From assembly GCA_022799495.1 (NCBI GenBank), contig JAAWON010000004.1, positions 1 through 64,000 of the forward strand: 64,000 bases of DNA, given 5' to 3'. Below the pieces are notes generated by a model. That model saw nothing but the letters and a program-made list of their open reading frames with translations. It made no database searches and was not told the DNA's origin. Each line of letters starts with the position of its first letter. The stretch's first letter is position 1. This DNA is from Erysipelotrichaceae bacterium. GTDB lineage: Bacteria > Bacillota_I > Bacilli_A > Erysipelotrichales > Erysipelotrichaceae. Shown in pieces: positions 6,184 through 42,132 of this stretch. A program made the translations under genes and the position numbers.

Positions 6184-8556
6184 GTGGATATGGAACAAAA
6201 TACGGAACCAAATACGGAAATCCGCAAGGATAATGAACCAATGGAAGATGAACAAGAGCCTATCGCAATAAAGACACAGGAATCCGATCATCAGGATACA
6301 TCCTTGCCAGAAACTACTGCAATAAATGAACCAAGTCATGAACCAAAACATGCCAAGGCAGAACCGCAAACAACACAATCCCCATCAGCCAAAGCAGATG
6401 CGTTACACAGCGAACCGCCACATGAGGAATCCTTCAAAGAAAGCGAGGAGCCTGATGTCGCAATGACTGATGGCTTTAACTATGAGCAGTTTCATAATGA
6501 ACTGCTTTCCATTATTGAAGAACCCTGCATTCCTCAACCCAAACAAACGGAAACAACGCATATACAAAACGAGGAAACTGAAGATGAGAGCAGAGAACAA
6601 ATAGAAGACAGTTTCACTTCAGAATCAGAAACATTCGACACTGAAACCATAGAAGAGACAAGCGAAGAACTCCCACCACAAGACGAGTCCATAACGGATC
6701 CTGTCCCTGTATCAACGCAATCGACTCGAATGAATTGGTGGATGCATCAAGGTTGGGATTATGGATTATCCTTCCTGTTATTTGCGCTCTCTGCTTTTCT
6801 CACCTATCGCTTATATGATCTTTCTTTGTTATCCGGTTGGATTTGGAAAATCGGTGTTGTCTTATTGATTATCAATCTATTATTCGCGCTCACATTATTG
6901 CGCAAATTACCCAATTGGCTAATCTGGTTGCGCCGTTGTATCATCCTATTATTGTGTGCACTGCTTACCTATGGAACAATCTTTGCGAATACCCTGCAAG
7001 AATCTTTAGAAGCGATTACGAAGCCGGAAACCGCAACGACCATCAATGTATCGCTTGTGACAAAGCGCGATGGTGGAGCAATGCAGCTTGCTGAACTCAG
7101 CGGCAAAAAAATCGGGATTCAAACTGCCAATGATAATGAAAACAGCAGTTATGTGAAACAACAATTAAGCAAAGAAAGTGACTTAAAGAATGTCACCTAT
7201 GTGGAGGAAATTGATTACGACAGTCTTTATCAACAATTGATGAAGGAAGAAATTGATGCTTTGATCATTACCGATTATTACTTCAAAACACTGCTAAAAG
7301 AGCATTATCCTACCATAGAAGATGATATTTTCATCCTAAAAAGCTACCAAAAAGAAAAAAGTGTAAAGCAATCTTCCAGCAATAAAGATATACGTTATGA
7401 AACCTTTACCGTGTATATTGCCGGTGTGGATGAAGGGGATGATCCAAGCATTGATGCACGCAGTGATGTAAACATCGTCTTGATTGTCAATCCTTTGGCC
7501 AATCATATCAAAATGGTTTCCATTCCCCGTGATTCTTTTGTCCCCAATCCAGCATTAGGCTATGCCAATGATAAATTAACTCATTTGGGTCTCAATGGCG
7601 TAGAAAATTCCATGGAGGGACTCGAAGAAGTATTGGGCTTTGAAATCGACTATTATGTGAAACTGAATTTCTTCTCTGTCATTGAAATTATTGATGCGAT
7701 CGGTGAAATTGAAGTAGAGGTACCGATTGCCTTCTGTGAACAGGATGAAAATCGCAGTTTTGCGGATGAAGATCTCATTTGTTTGAATGAGGGCAGACAA
7801 ACCTTAAATGGCAAACAGGCGCTTGCTTTTGCCCGTCATCGTAAATCCTATACGGATGTCATGCGTGGCAAAGCCCAGCAAGAGGTTATCAAAGGCACGA
7901 TCAATGCACTGACAAGCACTGCCGGTGCCCTAAATATTAATAATGTTCTAAAAATTGCATCCAAGGCAGTAAGCACCAATATGCCGATGGAACAAGTGAC
8001 GAACTTTGTCTCAGCACAGTTGGACAATTTGAAGCCTTGGACAATTGAATCAATCATCTTGGAAAATGGAGTGGATGCCTCACTTGTGACCGCAAGCATG
8101 CCTAGTGTGGAACTTTATGTGATGCTTTTAAATCCGATTGATATTCAAGCGGTATACACAGCTTACCAAGAAATGATGAATCAAATGGAATTTGCATCCT
8201 TTACGTTCCATTTAGATCATTTAGAGGATCGAAACGCTGAATTACCTTATAATCCAAATATTCTTTGGGCAGGTTCAGACACCGGCAATTATCATCTGCC
8301 CGACAGTGAACAAGCACCTGATGATACCATAGATGTACCTGATGAAACACAGCCGGATCAGCCAGAAACACCAAGCATTCCGGATAGTGAACCGGAACAA
8401 CCGGATGACAATGATCCCAGCACACCTACGGATCCGGATCAGCCTACCAATCCCGATCAGCCAACCCCTGATCCTGAGCCTAATCCTGATCCATCCCCTG
8501 ATCCCAATCCGGGGGATGGAGGCAGTACTCCGCCCAATCAAGGTGAAACAAATTAA
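6184..8556 (+). CDS. LCP family protein with acidic N-terminal extension, SBP-like insert and Pro/Asp-rich C-terminal tail
   Basis: SDVNIVLIVNPLANHIKMVSIPRDSFVP, NDKLTHLGLNG, GKQALAFARHRKSYTDVMRGKAQQEVI. Tail PDQPTNPDQPTPDPEPNPDPSPDPNPG. Confidence 0.9.
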   Translation: MDMEQNTEPNTEIRKDNEPMEDEQEPIAIKTQESDHQDTSLPETTAINEPSHEPKHAKAEPQTTQSPSAKADALHSEPPHEESFKESEEPDVAMTDGFNYEQFHNELLSIIEEPCIPQPKQTETTHIQNEETEDESREQIEDSFTSESETFDTETIEETSEELPPQDESITDPVPVSTQSTRMNWWMHQGWDYGLSFLLFALSAFLTYRLYDLSLLSGWIWKIGVVLLIINLLFALTLLRKLPNWLIWLRRCIILLLCALLTYGTIFANTLQESLEAITKPETATTINVSLVTKRDGGAMQLAELSGKKIGIQTANDNENSSYVKQQLSKESDLKNVTYVEEIDYDSLYQQLMKEEIDALIITDYYFKTLLKEHYPTIEDDIFILKSYQKEKSVKQSSSNKDIRYETFTVYIAGVDEGDDPSIDARSDVNIVLIVNPLANHIKMVSIPRDSFVPNPALGYANDKLTHLGLNGVENSMEGLEEVLGFEIDYYVKLNFFSVIEIIDAIGEIEVEVPIAFCEQDENRSFADEDLICLNEGRQTLNGKQALAFARHRKSYTDVMRGKAQQEVIKGTINALTSTAGALNINNVLKIASKAVSTNMPMEQVTNFVSAQLDNLKPWTIESIILENGVDASLVTASMPSVELYVMLLNPIDIQAVYTAYQEMMNQMEFASFTFHLDHLEDRNAELPYNPNILWAGSDTGNYHLPDSEQAPDDTIDVPDETQPDQPETPSIPDSEPEQPDDNDPSTPTDPDQPTNPDQPTPDPEPNPDPSPDPNPGDGGSTPPNQGETN

Positions 8557-8581
8557 GTAAGTTAAACCATAAGCATACAAT

Positions 8582-8632
8582 AAAAACCATGAACCAAATT
8601 GAAATGATCACTTCCAATGGCTCATGGTTTTC
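8582..8632 (+). terminator. Intrinsic terminator after LCP gene
   Basis: AAAACCATGAACC ... GGCTCATGGTTTT stem followed by T-rich sequence. Confidence 0.65.
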
Positions 8633-8683
8633 TTTATTGTTTTTTTGTTTTCTTTATTGTTTTCTTTATTGTTTTCTTTATTG
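8628..8683. repeat. Short tandem repeat, 12-bp unit TTTTCTTTATTG (4 copies, with an 8-nt interruption after the first)
   Basis: Units at 8628-8639, 8648-8659, 8660-8671 and 8672-8683. Confidence 0.9.
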
Positions 8684-8698
8684 TTTATACTCGTTTTT

Positions 8699-35763: not shown

Positions 35764-37350
35764 TTAATACCCCATCTTACTCATGACATGGATATCCTCA
35801 GGACGGAAGTCTAACGCAATCTCTGCGCCTTCCTCACTGTTATGCGTGGTATGTACCTTGAACACACGCCCTTTGGTCGCAAACGATACTTCATATACAC
35901 CGACTTCAATTGTATCAGGATCAAAATCGTATTCTACATCCTCAATCTCCACATCACTTTCATCACTGAGTTTCCACCCTTGCGCATTGGCCCATGTTTT
36001 CAGATCGGTGTCAATTGCCACACTCTCCTTGATCTCATCTACGCTCTTAAAGAAATTAAAGGCAGAAATCGCTTCATTTTTCTTGGGATTCTCCACATAC
36101 TTCTGTTCTACCGCCATGATATTGACCGTGATACTTGTGCCATTGGCCGTAGCGAATGTGACCGGATAGTTACCGACTTCCTCTTTTAATTCATATTCGA
36201 TTCTAGATATCGACAAGTATTCATTGGTCATCGGATCCCATGCCTGCGCATCGGCACGAGCGATGATCTCCGCATCATTGAGCTCCTTGATATCGGCCAA
36301 GTCCACATAAAAACTATTGGCGGATATGCGCTCCTTCGCATCACTAGATGCCACATCATGCGGCTTCGTCACATGCATTTTAACACTTACCTTAGTCCCG
36401 GGTACAGTTTCCACCATGATCTCATAGTGAACCCCTTTAAACAGTACCGATTTTACGACACCATTCAATTTCCCCTCGTGTTCCTTTACAATATCTAAAT
36501 CCTCGGGACGAATCACCACATCCACTGCTTCCTTTTCCTTAAAGCCAAAATCGACACAGGTAAAATCCTGATCATCAAATTGGACTTGATAATCGCAAAG
36601 CATCACCCCGGGAATGATATTTGATTCACCGATGAAATTTGCCACATAGCGATTCTGCGGTTCGTTGTAAATATCAATCGGTGAACCAACCTGCTGGATT
36701 TCGCCATCCTTCATTACCACGATCTTATCACTCATGGTGAGTGCTTCCTCCTGATCATGCGTTACATAGATAAAAGTGATACCGACTTCTTGTTGGATAC
36801 GCTTCAATTCATACTGCATTTCCTTGCGCAGTTTTAAATCCAAAGCGGCCAATGGCTCATCCAACAATAAGACCTTTGGTTCATTCACCAATGCACGGGC
36901 AATCGCAATACGCTGTTGTTGGCCTCCGGATAGCAATGTCACATCGCGTTTTTCAAACCCCTCTAAATTGATCAGTTTTAGCATCTTCATCACCTTTTGC
37001 TCAATGACATCTTTGCTCATCTTTTTAATTTTTAAGCCAAAGGCAATATTTTCATATACATTCATATGTGGAAACAACGCATACTTTTGAAACACCGTAT
37101 TCAATTCTCGCTTATAGGGAGGCAGATCACTGATCTCTTTTCCATCAAAAATCAATCGCCCCTCACTCTGTCGCAAAAAGCCGGCCAAGATCCGCAACAG
37201 TGTAGTTTTGCCACAACCCGAAGGTCCAAGCAAAGTCACAAATTCATTCTCATAAATATCCAACGATATCCCTTTTAATACCAACTGTCCGTCAAAATCC
37301 TTAACGATATTCTGAAATTGAATCAATCTGTTTGTTTCATTGATTTCCAT
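35764..37350 (-). CDS. potA: Spermidine/putrescine ABC transporter ATP-binding protein with large insertion in the C-terminal TOBE region
   Basis: [63 protein letters not shown] halves [19 protein letters not shown] and [14 protein letters not shown] separated by ~173 extra residues. Start at MEINETNRL. Confidence 0.93.
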
Positions 37351-37361
37351 TGCTTTTCCTC

Positions 37362-37895
37362 CTAGAACATGGGCGGTGTGCTTACCCATAAAAGGGAAGC
37401 CTCATGTTTACCGCTGTTTTTGATATAATGAGTGTTGCGTCCGCTGATATAAAAGGTTTCCCCTTTTTTCAGCGTATACTCCTTATCACCGTTGACCAGT
37501 GTAATCCGTCCCTGCAATACATAGCCAAACTCCTCACCGATATGAGGATCGATGGTATGAGAGACCCCTTGTGGATTCAAGGTTAAAATCATCGGTTCCA
37601 TCTCATTTTTTTGTGCATTGGGAATGATCCAGTGAATGGTAAAATCCTCCTGTTCATCCACAAAAAAATCGTCTTGATGAAAGACGATCTGTTCCTCACT
37701 TGCTTCCTTAAAGAATGCGGCAAGATCCGTTCCCAGTGCCGCCAATATATCCTCCAGTGTTGATACGGAGGGTGAGGTCAGATTTCGCTCCACTTGGCTT
37801 AAAAACCCTTTGGTTAACTCACTGCGACTCGCAAGTTCCTCCAATGTAAGATCCTTGCGAATACGCAACTGCTTTAGTTTTCGTCCTATGTCCAT
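37362..37895 (-). CDS. XRE-family regulator with C-terminal cupin (PuuR-like)
   Basis: [53 protein letters not shown]; cupin [49 protein letters not shown]. Confidence 0.93.
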
Positions 37896-38218: not shown

Positions 38219-39133
38219 ATGAAACACAAAAAGAAACTTGTCACAGTTGCCACCGCATTCGGTATTACCAGTGCCGCAGCGCTCTATGCGGAACGTAAAA
38301 TCCTCTCCTCATTATTTGAGCGCGATGATCAGTGGATGAAAGGAGCACGTGACGGGAAGCGTTACGCCTATGAATGGTTTGATGACAAAGGAGCGAACCA
38401 CCGCTATATCGAAGCACACGACCATGTACGCCTACATGCATATGAATTGCCACAATCCATTCCCACGCACCGCTATATGATCATGTTACATGGCTTTCAT
38501 GGGTATGTGAAAGAACTCAGTTATGAGGCAAAGCATTTTTATGAAATGGGTTATCATCTCATTTTGCCAAGCATGCGAGCACACGGAATGAGTGAAGGGG
38601 CAATGATTACGATGGGCATTTTGGAACATCTGGATGTTTGTCGTTGGATGGAAGAAGTACGCCGCACAGATCCACAAGCACAAATCACCCTGTATGGAGT
38701 ATCTATGGGTGCGGCCACAACTCTTTTGACTTTGGCAAAGCCGCAAGGTGAGTGGGTTCGTGCAGCCATTGCCGACTGCCCTTATGCGCGAGTAATAGAC
38801 GTCTTTGATTATTATTTATCGAAGCGGCTGCATCTTCCTTATCGTTGGTATTTGTATGCCTGTAATGAATTGGTATATCATAAATCCCATATTTCATTGA
38901 AGGAAGCACGTCCGATTGATGTGGTGGATCAAATTAAAACACCGCTCTTATTGATTCATGGCGATGCGGATGACTTGGTTCCTTATTCCATGATGGATGA
39001 ACTTTATCAAAAAGTGAATGGCCCTAAACAAAAACTGACCATTCCCCATGCAGGCCATGCGCTTTCCTCCAGTTATGATCCTGATACCTATTGGCAATGT
39101 GTGGATGCATTTCTTAAGCGGTATTCGCTATGA
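38219..39133 (+). CDS. Alpha/beta hydrolase
   Basis: MLHGFHGYVKE, YGVSMGAATTLL nucleophile elbow, LLIHGDADDLVPY, GHALSSSY; SD AAAGGAAGTG. Confidence 0.9.
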   Translation: MKHKKKLVTVATAFGITSAAALYAERKILSSLFERDDQWMKGARDGKRYAYEWFDDKGANHRYIEAHDHVRLHAYELPQSIPTHRYMIMLHGFHGYVKELSYEAKHFYEMGYHLILPSMRAHGMSEGAMITMGILEHLDVCRWMEEVRRTDPQAQITLYGVSMGAATTLLTLAKPQGEWVRAAIADCPYARVIDVFDYYLSKRLHLPYRWYLYACNELVYHKSHISLKEARPIDVVDQIKTPLLLIHGDADDLVPYSMMDELYQKVNGPKQKLTIPHAGHALSSSYDPDTYWQCVDAFLKRYSL

Positions 39134-39235
39134 TCAGCGCATTGTGAAACTTTTCATAAATCATGATACCTCGTACAAGGTGGTTGTATATCATTGAAGC
39201 GATCACACCCATAACATCTGATATTTGCTTTATAA

Positions 39236-39548
39236 TAAAAAAACAGACCGCTTTCACAGTCTGTCTTTTTGTGGGTATCCTTACGGATACAAACCTTGAG
39301 GGGATCAAGGATCAAATCAGGTGTTGGGCATAGGTCAGATTAAAGGTTATTAGGATAGAGATATTTCCATTCCCTGGAATTGGAGGAATGGGCAGAGAAT
39401 CTGCCTATGACCCGAATCGCGGTTGCGACAACACCCGTGAGTACCCACCCATTTCATCTCCCCGCAAGCCCTTGCACGATTATGTATGCGATAGTCAGGT
39501 CAACCTATAAGTCCCGATTATCATGAAAAGTCGAGCATTTCTTTTCAC
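39236..39548 (-). ncRNA. Candidate free-standing structured RNA (~310 nt), family not identified
   Basis: Minus-strand promoter TTGCGC (39583-39578), 17-bp spacer, TATTAT (39560-39555); terminator ACAGAC...GTCTGTTTTTTT; nested helices listed in findings; no plausible ORF on the strand; lies between asnS and a convergent hydrolase gene. Confidence 0.65.
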
Positions 39549-39689
39549 AACATAATAATAAACGAAATTTTAAAATTGCGCAATACTCTTTGCGCAACTT
39601 GGAGATGAAATGAAAAACCTGCGATTATCGCCACTTTTTGAAAATGTACGCAATTCAAATTTGCCTGTTTTTTGCCTTTCCGACATGAA

Positions 39690-39718
39690 AAAAAGCCCAT
39701 AACTAAGGGCTTTTTTGA
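39690..39718 (-). terminator. Intrinsic terminator of asnS
   Basis: AAAAAAAGCCC ataactaa GGGCTTTTTT. Confidence 0.75.
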
Positions 39719-39814
39719 AGGTGTAAAAATGGCAAAATGGCAAAATTCGCATGACCGAATTTTTCACGTTTTTTACCGCCTTTTTCATCTCTGATTTTAA
39801 CAAAATCAAAAAAT

Positions 39815-41200
39815 TTAAAAAATTAGATTGCGCGGTGTACGCGGAAATGGTTCCACATCGCGGATATTACTGATGCCACTCACATACATCAAAAAACGAT
39901 CAAAGCCTAGTCCAAACCCGGCGTGCTTACATCCGCCATAGCGGCGCAGATCCATATACCACTGCAAGCCTTCCTCCTGCATCCCCATTTCCGCCATACG
40001 CTGTTTCAGCACGTCGTAGCGCTCCTCACGCTGTGAGCCACCCACTAATTCACCAACACCCGGCACTAACAAATCACAAGCGGCAACGGTCTTGCCATCA
40101 TCATTGATCCGCATATAGAACGCCTTGATATCCTTCGGATAATCAATCAAAAACACCGGTCCATTGACAACCTTTTCACACAGATAGCGTTCATGTTCAC
40201 TCTGTAAATCCATACCCCACTCTATATGATTGTTTTCAAACTTTACATCCGCCCGCTTTAACAACTCAATCGCTTCTGTATAGGTCATGCGCTTAAACTC
40301 ACTGTTGCGCACCGCAGTGATGCGTTTGATACATTCGGAATCAATCATCTTTTCAAAGAATCGCATCTCTTCCGGTGCATTCTCTAACAGATAATCAATA
40401 CAGTATTTTACCATATCCTCAATCAAATCCATATCATCCTCTAAATCAGCAAATGCGATTTCCGGTTCAATCATCCAAAACTCACTGGCATGACGTGTCG
40501 TGTTGGAATTCTCTGCTCGAAACGTAGGTCCAAATGTATAAACATCACGGAAAGCCATCGCAAAGGCCTCCACATGAAGTTGACCGGATACCGTCAAAGC
40601 GGCGTGTTTACCAAAGAAATCCTCCTCGTAATTGCCATCTGTGCGAGTGGTAACATTGAAGCATTCACCGGCCCCTTCCGCATCATTGCCGGTGATAATC
40701 GGTGTATGCACATAAACAAAGCCCTGATTCTGAAAAAACTCATGAATTGCCATGGACAACACCGAACGCAGACGAAAGATGGCATAAAACGTGTTTGCCC
40801 GTACCCGCAAATGCGGCAGTTCACGCATATACTCAAAACTATGGCGCTTCTTCTGCATCGGATAATCGTTTGCACAAGCCCCCTCTAGTACAACCTCACG
40901 CACTGCGATTTCAAAAGGCTGCTTGCCTTGTGGCGTGGAAACAAATTTTCCCATAACCGTAATGGCTGTACCGATGGTATATTTCTCAACCTCGTTAAAG
41001 TTCTCTAAATCGCACTCATAAACCAACTGTGCATTGCGAAAATAAGTACCGTCATTCAACTCAATGAAGCCCAGTTTTCCACTGGAGCGATTGGTTCTGA
41101 TCCAACCCTGTAACTGCACATATTCCAGCGTGTCTAATTCCACCGGATTATTCGCAAATACAACCTCATACAACTCACGAATCGTCATAAATTCAAACAT
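39815..41200 (-). CDS. asnS: Asparagine--tRNA ligase
   Basis: [107 protein letters not shown]. Confidence 0.97.
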
Positions 41201-41269: not shown

Positions 41270-41495
41270 ATAAAAAAAGCGCTCCCGTTTTTTCAGGAAC
41301 GCATAATTTGCGCGGTGCCATCCTGATTCGTCAGATCATGATCCAACGCACCTTGTTTCTTTTTGATGCATAACGCCGCATCTTGCGAAACCGTCTACTA
41401 TTGTTCTCCGGTTTAGCTCGGCAGGTGTTCTCTGCGGATGCCACGACCGCATTTTCACCAACTTGCGGTTCTCTTTTTTCGCTTTCTTCGCATCG
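41270..41495 (-). promoter_or_regulatory. T-box riboswitch leader of asnS
   Basis: Minus strand GGATGGCACCGCGC (41325-41312) T-box sequence followed by terminator GCGTTCCTGAAAAAACGGGAGCGCTTTTTTT, directly upstream of asnS. Confidence 0.88.
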
Positions 41496-41502
41496 TCCTG
41501 CG

Positions 41503-42132
41503 TCATTGCTTTGTCGTCAGGGAATTTGTTTCAAATACAAGTTCCTGTATAGATGATACCACATCTACCGTCTTTAATACAACCCCTTTTGGCACTTGAA
41601 TATGTTCATGGGTAAAATCCACGAGGCCAATGATGCCACAATTGATTAAACGATCCACACTGCCTTGAATATCCTCGGAAATAGCGAGAATGGCGATGCG
41701 GCAATCAGCGGGGATACGTTCTTCCAGCTCTTTCATATCATAAACCGGGATGCCAAAGCGTACCCCTTGGCGATCGGGATTGATATCAAAGGCACAGGCA
41801 ATTTCACCTACCACATAATCCCATTTGTTATATTTCATCAATGCACGCCCCATATTACCGGCTCCTACCAAAATGATCTTTTCTTCAAAATCCATGCCTA
41901 ATTGAGCGTTGAAAATCTCAATCAAGCGATCAATTTCATAGCCGAATCCCTGTTTGCCCAAACTGCCCAAAAAGGAAAAATCACGACGAATGGTGGTTGG
42001 TTCAATATTCACTACATCGGCCAATTCTTTGGACATGATGCGCTGAATACCATTTCGTTTCAGTTTGCGCAAGGCTTTCAAGTAGACCGGATAGCGCTGT
42101 AAGGTTGCCTTGGGAACATTTTTATTTGCCAT
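41503..42132 (-). CDS. rex: Redox-sensing transcriptional repressor Rex
   Basis: VPKATLQRYPVYLKALRKLKRNGIQRIMSKELADVVNIEPTTIRRDFSFLGSLGKQGFGYEI and GAGNMGRALMKYNKW. Confidence 0.95.
   Translation of the reverse strand: MANKNVPKATLQRYPVYLKALRKLKRNGIQRIMSKELADVVNIEPTTIRRDFSFLGSLGKQGFGYEIDRLIEIFNAQLGMDFEEKIILVGAGNMGRALMKYNKWDYVVGEIACAFDINPDRQGVRFGIPVYDMKELEERIPADCRIAILAISEDIQGSVDRLINCGIIGLVDFTHEHIQVPKGVVLKTVDVVSSIQELVFETNSLTTKQ

Follow-up and report, generated by a model that had tools for sequence, protein, structure and literature searches.

What is encoded in the non-coding stretch that follows asnS in this Erysipelotrichaceae genome, and does it belong to any recognised class of RNA? The window (the whole stretch of DNA that was analysed, 64,000 nucleotides in length) offers, judged from its sequence, one most likely answer, namely a structured RNA of ~300 bases encoded after asnS and unlike the catalogued families. 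With moderate confidence, the locus can be described as a free-standing RNA of ~310 nt with its own sigma-70-type promoter, which would be a member of a sibling family and likely a trans-acting regulator. The family as a whole is best read as a new, genus-restricted group of small sibling RNAs, of which some would also code for a peptide. The features of the locus are collected in Table 1.

Table 1. Predicted features of the window locus and of its sibling junctions on contig C56
Feature	Position	Strand	Basis or remark
Candidate structured RNA, ~310 nt, predicted start ~39548	39236..39548	(-)	fold z; no Rfam match
Promoter element, ~125 bp, includes GTGGCGATaATCGCAGGTTTTTCATTTCATCTCCAA and promoter	39541..39665	(-)	common to four loci of the genome
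Promoter TTGCGC-17-TATTAT	39555..39583	(-)	sequence; TTGCGC 39583-39578, TATTAT 39560-39555
Double palindrome TTGCGCAA-N6-TTGCGCAA over the -35	39576..39597	strand-neutral	sole exact copy in the genome
5'-terminal hairpin TGAAAAG...CTTTTCA	39523..39547	(-)	sequence and folds; absent from the preliminary description
GGGGAG motif	39458..39463	(-)	GGGGA 39463-39459 complementary to TCCCC loop 39304-39300
Three-way junction P2-P3-P4	39318..39437	(-)	folds; same architecture at C56:357-501 and C56:900-1058
Helix P2, GGGTGTTG/CAACACC(TG)	39437-39429 with 39326-39318	(-)	sequence
Hairpin P3, GTCGC-AACC-GCGAT	inside junction 39318..39437	(-)	fold
Helix P4, GGGtCATAGG/CCTATGCCC	39413-39404 with 39334-39326	(-)	sequence
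3' hairpin CCTTGA/TCAAGG, TCCCC loop	39310-39294	(-)	sequence
3' hairpin GTATCC-GTAA-GGATAC	39290-39275	(-)	sequence
Intrinsic terminator, symmetric	39236..39270	strand-neutral	sequence and fold
Sibling junctions	C56:357-501, C56:900-1058		folds; window-like three-way junction

The minus-strand promoter given in the preliminary description is found where it had been placed. Its -35 hexamer matches at only three of six positions and a generic promoter scan makes no call here; this weak-looking signal gains support from its collinear recurrence in the sibling copies described below. The double palindrome that overlies the -35 is not conserved in the sibling promoters and is possibly an operator of the window copy only. 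At the opposite end, the intrinsic terminator is indeed present, but it is symmetric and lies ~100 nt past a convergent hydrolase gene, and is thus by itself no proof of a minus-strand transcript. It could belong to the RNA, to the hydrolase gene or to the two together.

All the helices previously listed for the minus strand exist in the sequence at their positions, including CCATTCCT/GGGAATGG, and some details require correction. The GGTGTTG/CAACACC and GGGtCATAGG helices are both present, but C39326 had been counted in each of them. The GCAGA/TCTGC hairpin at 39392-39403 can be formed, but it competes with the longer P4, which is favoured by the energy model. Similarly, the complementarity behind the proposed GGGGA/TCCCC pseudoknot exists, while the same segments can also form a nested helix. 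The description of the RNA as highly structured agrees with folding statistics against dinucleotide shuffles, in which positions 39530-39236 reach a z of -3.65 on the minus strand and -2.37 on the plus strand. The 122-nt junction (39437-39316), whose ends were picked post hoc, has a z of about -5, the 0.5th percentile for segments of this length in the region being -4.7.

Comparison of the region with 4227 Rfam models gave no match at the gathering score and nothing sensible up to E 10, so the RNA can be regarded as uncatalogued. Neither the window RNA, nor its siblings on contig C56, nor the probably related locus in congener G004 matches tmRNA, RNase P RNA, SRP RNA, T-box leaders, riboswitches or other such models. 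The 6S RNA model (RF00013) likewise gives no match in the region. The genome's 6S candidate sits on contig C72 instead (C72:60998-60844, 41.6 bits), although 6S RNA resembles the window RNA in size range and in having a long irregular helix. The earlier view that the candidate does not match tmRNA, RNase P RNA, SRP RNA or 6S RNA is therefore sustained. The raiA-motif RNA, or ModT, is a free-standing structured RNA of Bacillota of ~200-300 nt that is read from a sigma-A-type promoter and ends at a terminator (PMC11706538), and the predicted window RNA is similar in these traits. However, the suggestion that it might be a raiA RNA finds no backing, as the region has no match to RF03072 up to E 10; none was obtained in seven genomes of the genus either, a weak negative given that the controls stayed silent too. 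The local three-way junction and GGGGAG set the window family apart from raiA.

The region has to be assessed together with its sister copies, since the small element that it represents occurs several times in the genome. A profile search with nhmmer, covering 1.64 Mb of the 1.80 Mb assembled, returned exactly four strong copies of the promoter element, located at 39665-39541 of the window (minus strand), C56:1-103, C56:607-731 and C13:8822-8698 (minus strand). The window element is 81% identical to C56:613-730 over 118 bp, 86% identical to C56:1-63 over 63 bp and 75% identical to C13:8822-8756 over 67 bp. The alignment is gapless through the promoter to the transcript start. The sibling promoters read TTGCCT-17-TATTAT and TTGTAT-17-TATCAT, and the two C56 copies have the pattern TTGnnn-17-TATnAT in positions collinear with those of the window. 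In the C13 copy, the promoter lies ~35 nt ahead of a gene for a TPR protein.

The C56 copies were found because the asnS-licD synteny of relatives pointed to the DNA upstream of licD. Most relatives examined have the order asnS followed by licD, and in congeners this occurs without these RNAs. In the window genome, asnS and licD stand on different contigs, each adjoining a copy of the repeat, and licD is on C56 with both element copies of that contig upstream of it. The assembly is 87% complete and consists of 74 contigs, of which C56 begins inside the repeat. It may therefore lack additional units, and it does not allow the order of asnS, the RNAs and licD to be worked out.

Downstream of the two C56 elements lie the sibling loci. 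C56a (C56:~100-564) contains a 42-aa open reading frame followed by a non-coding stretch with a terminator, and C56b (C56:723-1112) is a non-coding stretch. Each of the two non-coding stretches folds independently into the P2-P3-P4 arrangement of outer helix, hairpin and inner helix, with the 3' arm of P4 abutting the 3' arm of P2, as in the window. The fold z values of the junctions are about -5 for the window and -4.8 and -3.7 for the two C56 siblings. The paired sequences differ at almost every position among the three, and between the window and C56a RNAs no alignable sequence is found except the GGGGAG motif. Where the window RNA has its 5'-terminal hairpin, C56b has TGTGGAAA...TTTCCACA.

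A descriptor of the junction, tuned with the three structures already in view, gave 20 matches across 3.29 Mb, against a null of 5-12 per strand-genome, and most of them fell inside open reading frames. Three of these matches sit downstream of three of the four element copies, namely in the window, C56a and C56b, which combine the promoter element, GGGGAG and the three-way junction. None of the other matches in the genome has the promoter element or GGGGAG, and most of them lie inside open reading frames. Shuffled C56a passed the descriptor in 2 of 5000 cases (0.04%) and shuffled C56b in 13 of 5000 (0.26%), rates that are optimistic because the descriptor was shaped around known structures; even if their product is raised a hundredfold to allow for this, the joint chance stays near 1e-4. 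Moreover, GGGGAG occurs one to three times in each of the four RNAs (window, C56a, C56b and G004), making seven copies against ~0.12 expected, and as the best shared 6-mer it was equalled in none of 2000 shuffled sets. The comparative support thus comes from two sibling loci of the same genome which carry both the promoter element and the junction. Together with the Rfam result, they speak for the original proposal of a free-standing structured non-coding RNA that is no cis leader and belongs to no recognised class.

Searches for more distant relatives returned little. BLAST of the window RNA against 276 genomes of the family, phages and plasmids gave chance-level pieces only. A covariance model built from the single sequence (R1) matched nothing but itself in the genus, in 320 genomes of the order and in 397 of the class, and it missed the C56 sibling too. 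A pattern scan of GTDB contigs yielded 24 chance matches, none of them fitting R1. The DNA and R1 negatives weigh little, since the same searches miss the C56 siblings.

The open reading frame of C56a (C56 (L174) 146-274) encodes the exported-looking peptide MKKLVISALCGLCLFGAFACVSSQPAEGGEVAISRVCIATTS of 42 aa behind a good ribosome-binding site. Its homologue in G004 has 44 aa (L257 (G004:C3) 2187-2321) and is 50% identical over 36 aa (E 1e-7). Neither peptide has an NCBIfam, Pfam, phage or plasmid match. The sampled part of G004 (0.4 of 2.1 Mb) contains one full-length match to the promoter element, a weak one (E 0.011), followed by the gene of the 44-aa peptide and then by non-coding DNA that is strongly structured and ends in a terminator. 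This RNA shows a long central helix and GGGGAG, and it has no P3 and thus fails the junction descriptor. Since the element match is weak, it is chiefly the peptide and GGGGAG that link this RNA to the family. A reverse-transcriptase-like open reading frame, probably of a group II intron, lies directly upstream of this locus (L257 (G004:C3) 625-1944).

The distribution of the peptide gene bears on two other accounts of the window copy. It may be a decaying relic. On this view, the element is a peptide gene whose untranslated region is structured and which was duplicated in the genome; the peptide would be the functional product, and the window copy would have lost it. The peptide frame is intact in C56a and G004 and absent from the window and C56b, while the 5' part of C56b weakly resembles the C56a frame (11 of 1000 shuffles were as good), as such decay would predict. 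Nevertheless, the copies devoid of the peptide retain the junction and GGGGAG, and the window promoter is intact. This account is the strongest rival, because a single allele permits no selection test, yet we regard it as unlikely. The RNA could alternatively be the mRNA of a small peptide, with GGGGAG as the Shine–Dalgarno sequence for 39452-39405 (MGGYSRVLSQPRFGS) or 39457-39350 (35 aa). In the window the motif does stand 5 nt ahead of an ATG, and in C56b it precedes ATGs by 3-4 nt, but the putative peptides are not conserved and have no Pfam matches, and in G004 and C56a GGGGAG lacks an ATG at the right distance, which makes this reading quite improbable.

Two further explanations concern the nature of the RNA and its very existence. 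CsrB and RsmZ are sponge RNAs with a repeated G-rich motif, partly placed in hairpins. The window family shows a comparable motif, one to three times per RNA and some of it in hairpins, so that GGGGAG, which contains GGA, might bind a CsrA-like protein. Against this, the repeats number only one to three, the window RNA has a single one, and tblastn with one distant query identified no CsrA-like gene in the 1.64 Mb searched of the 1.80 Mb assembled; a protein sponge is accordingly a very remote prospect. We give just as little credence to the notion that there is no RNA here, and that an ordinary intergenic region with a hydrolase terminator folds by chance. The symmetric terminator after the hydrolase stop, the imperfect -35 and the lack of the sequence in congeners would suit it, whereas the recurrence of the promoter element and the junction at unlinked loci would not.

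The favoured reading thus remains a family of structured RNAs, with three members in the window genome and a probable fourth in G004. Common to them would be the promoter element, a 5' part with GGGGAG and a long, branched helix in the centre, which is shaped as a three-way junction in the three members of the window genome. The window RNA would run on the minus strand from the sigma-70-type promoter to the intrinsic terminator. Because the peptide gene comes first after the promoter at two of the four loci, the family probably descends from a structured RNA that also coded for the peptide; the window copy and C56b appear to have lost the peptide, the former retaining the RNA part alone. Because no gene lies downstream and no catalytic or housekeeping class fits, we infer that trans-acting regulation is the most likely mechanism. 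The RNA would be made under the control of an active regulator of the common promoter element, and it may act via its exposed loops and via the G-rich segment with GGGGAG, which the UCCCC loop could mask.

Known regulatory systems offer partial parallels. LhrC and Qrr are multi-copy sibling sRNAs, with several members per genome and a common promoter signal. The window family resembles them in both respects, but its siblings are similar in architecture and hardly in sequence, and no common antisense segment was identified. In another comparison, a peptide frame and a structured RNA occur together at two of the four loci and probably lie on a single transcript, which recalls RNAIII of Staphylococcus aureus and other dual-function sRNAs; unlike in those, there is no sequence or model match, and the window copy is without a peptide. 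No two-component or quorum-sensing genes were identified beside the window copy. VcdRP is a further example of a dual-function small RNA (PMC8672173).

A bolder and improbable extension is that the promoter element marks a peptide-signalling circuit, comprising the exported peptide (C56a and G004), a TPR protein as its possible receptor (C13) and the structured RNAs as its output, and that this circuit is an independently evolved counterpart of agr-RNAIII in which the RNA increases in copy number and loses the peptide gene. If real, the family would be an uncatalogued one of structured RNAs, missed by nucleotide and single-sequence covariance searches because fold and promoter were kept while nearly all of the sequence changed. 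Handles for finding the family, and for asking whether the peptide and the RNA are parts of a single regulatory circuit, are provided by the promoter element and by the peptide of 42-44 aa.

Several minor observations concern the surroundings. A perfect 12-nt inverted repeat, CATTTCATCTCC/GGAGATGAAATG (39450-39461 and 39601-39612), joins the promoter element with the GGGGAG segment; a MITE or insertion element bounded by it was considered and set aside, as no second copy has these boundaries. A pseudogene was likewise dismissed, the region having no Pfam matches in any frame. The protein behind the C13 copy (C13 (L167) 7172-8689, minus strand) has 505 aa, consists of TPR repeats almost throughout and would be driven by the RNAs' promoter element. 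The window genome departs at 39133-39815 from the neighbourhood that asnS and licD form in relatives. A PotA-like ABC ATPase of 541 aa is encoded at 35764-37389 (minus strand), with ~200 residues past its TOBE domain that match no Pfam family. Upstream of asnS, at 41292-41515 (minus strand), lies a T-box leader that scores 88.6 bits against an Rfam gathering score of 93.
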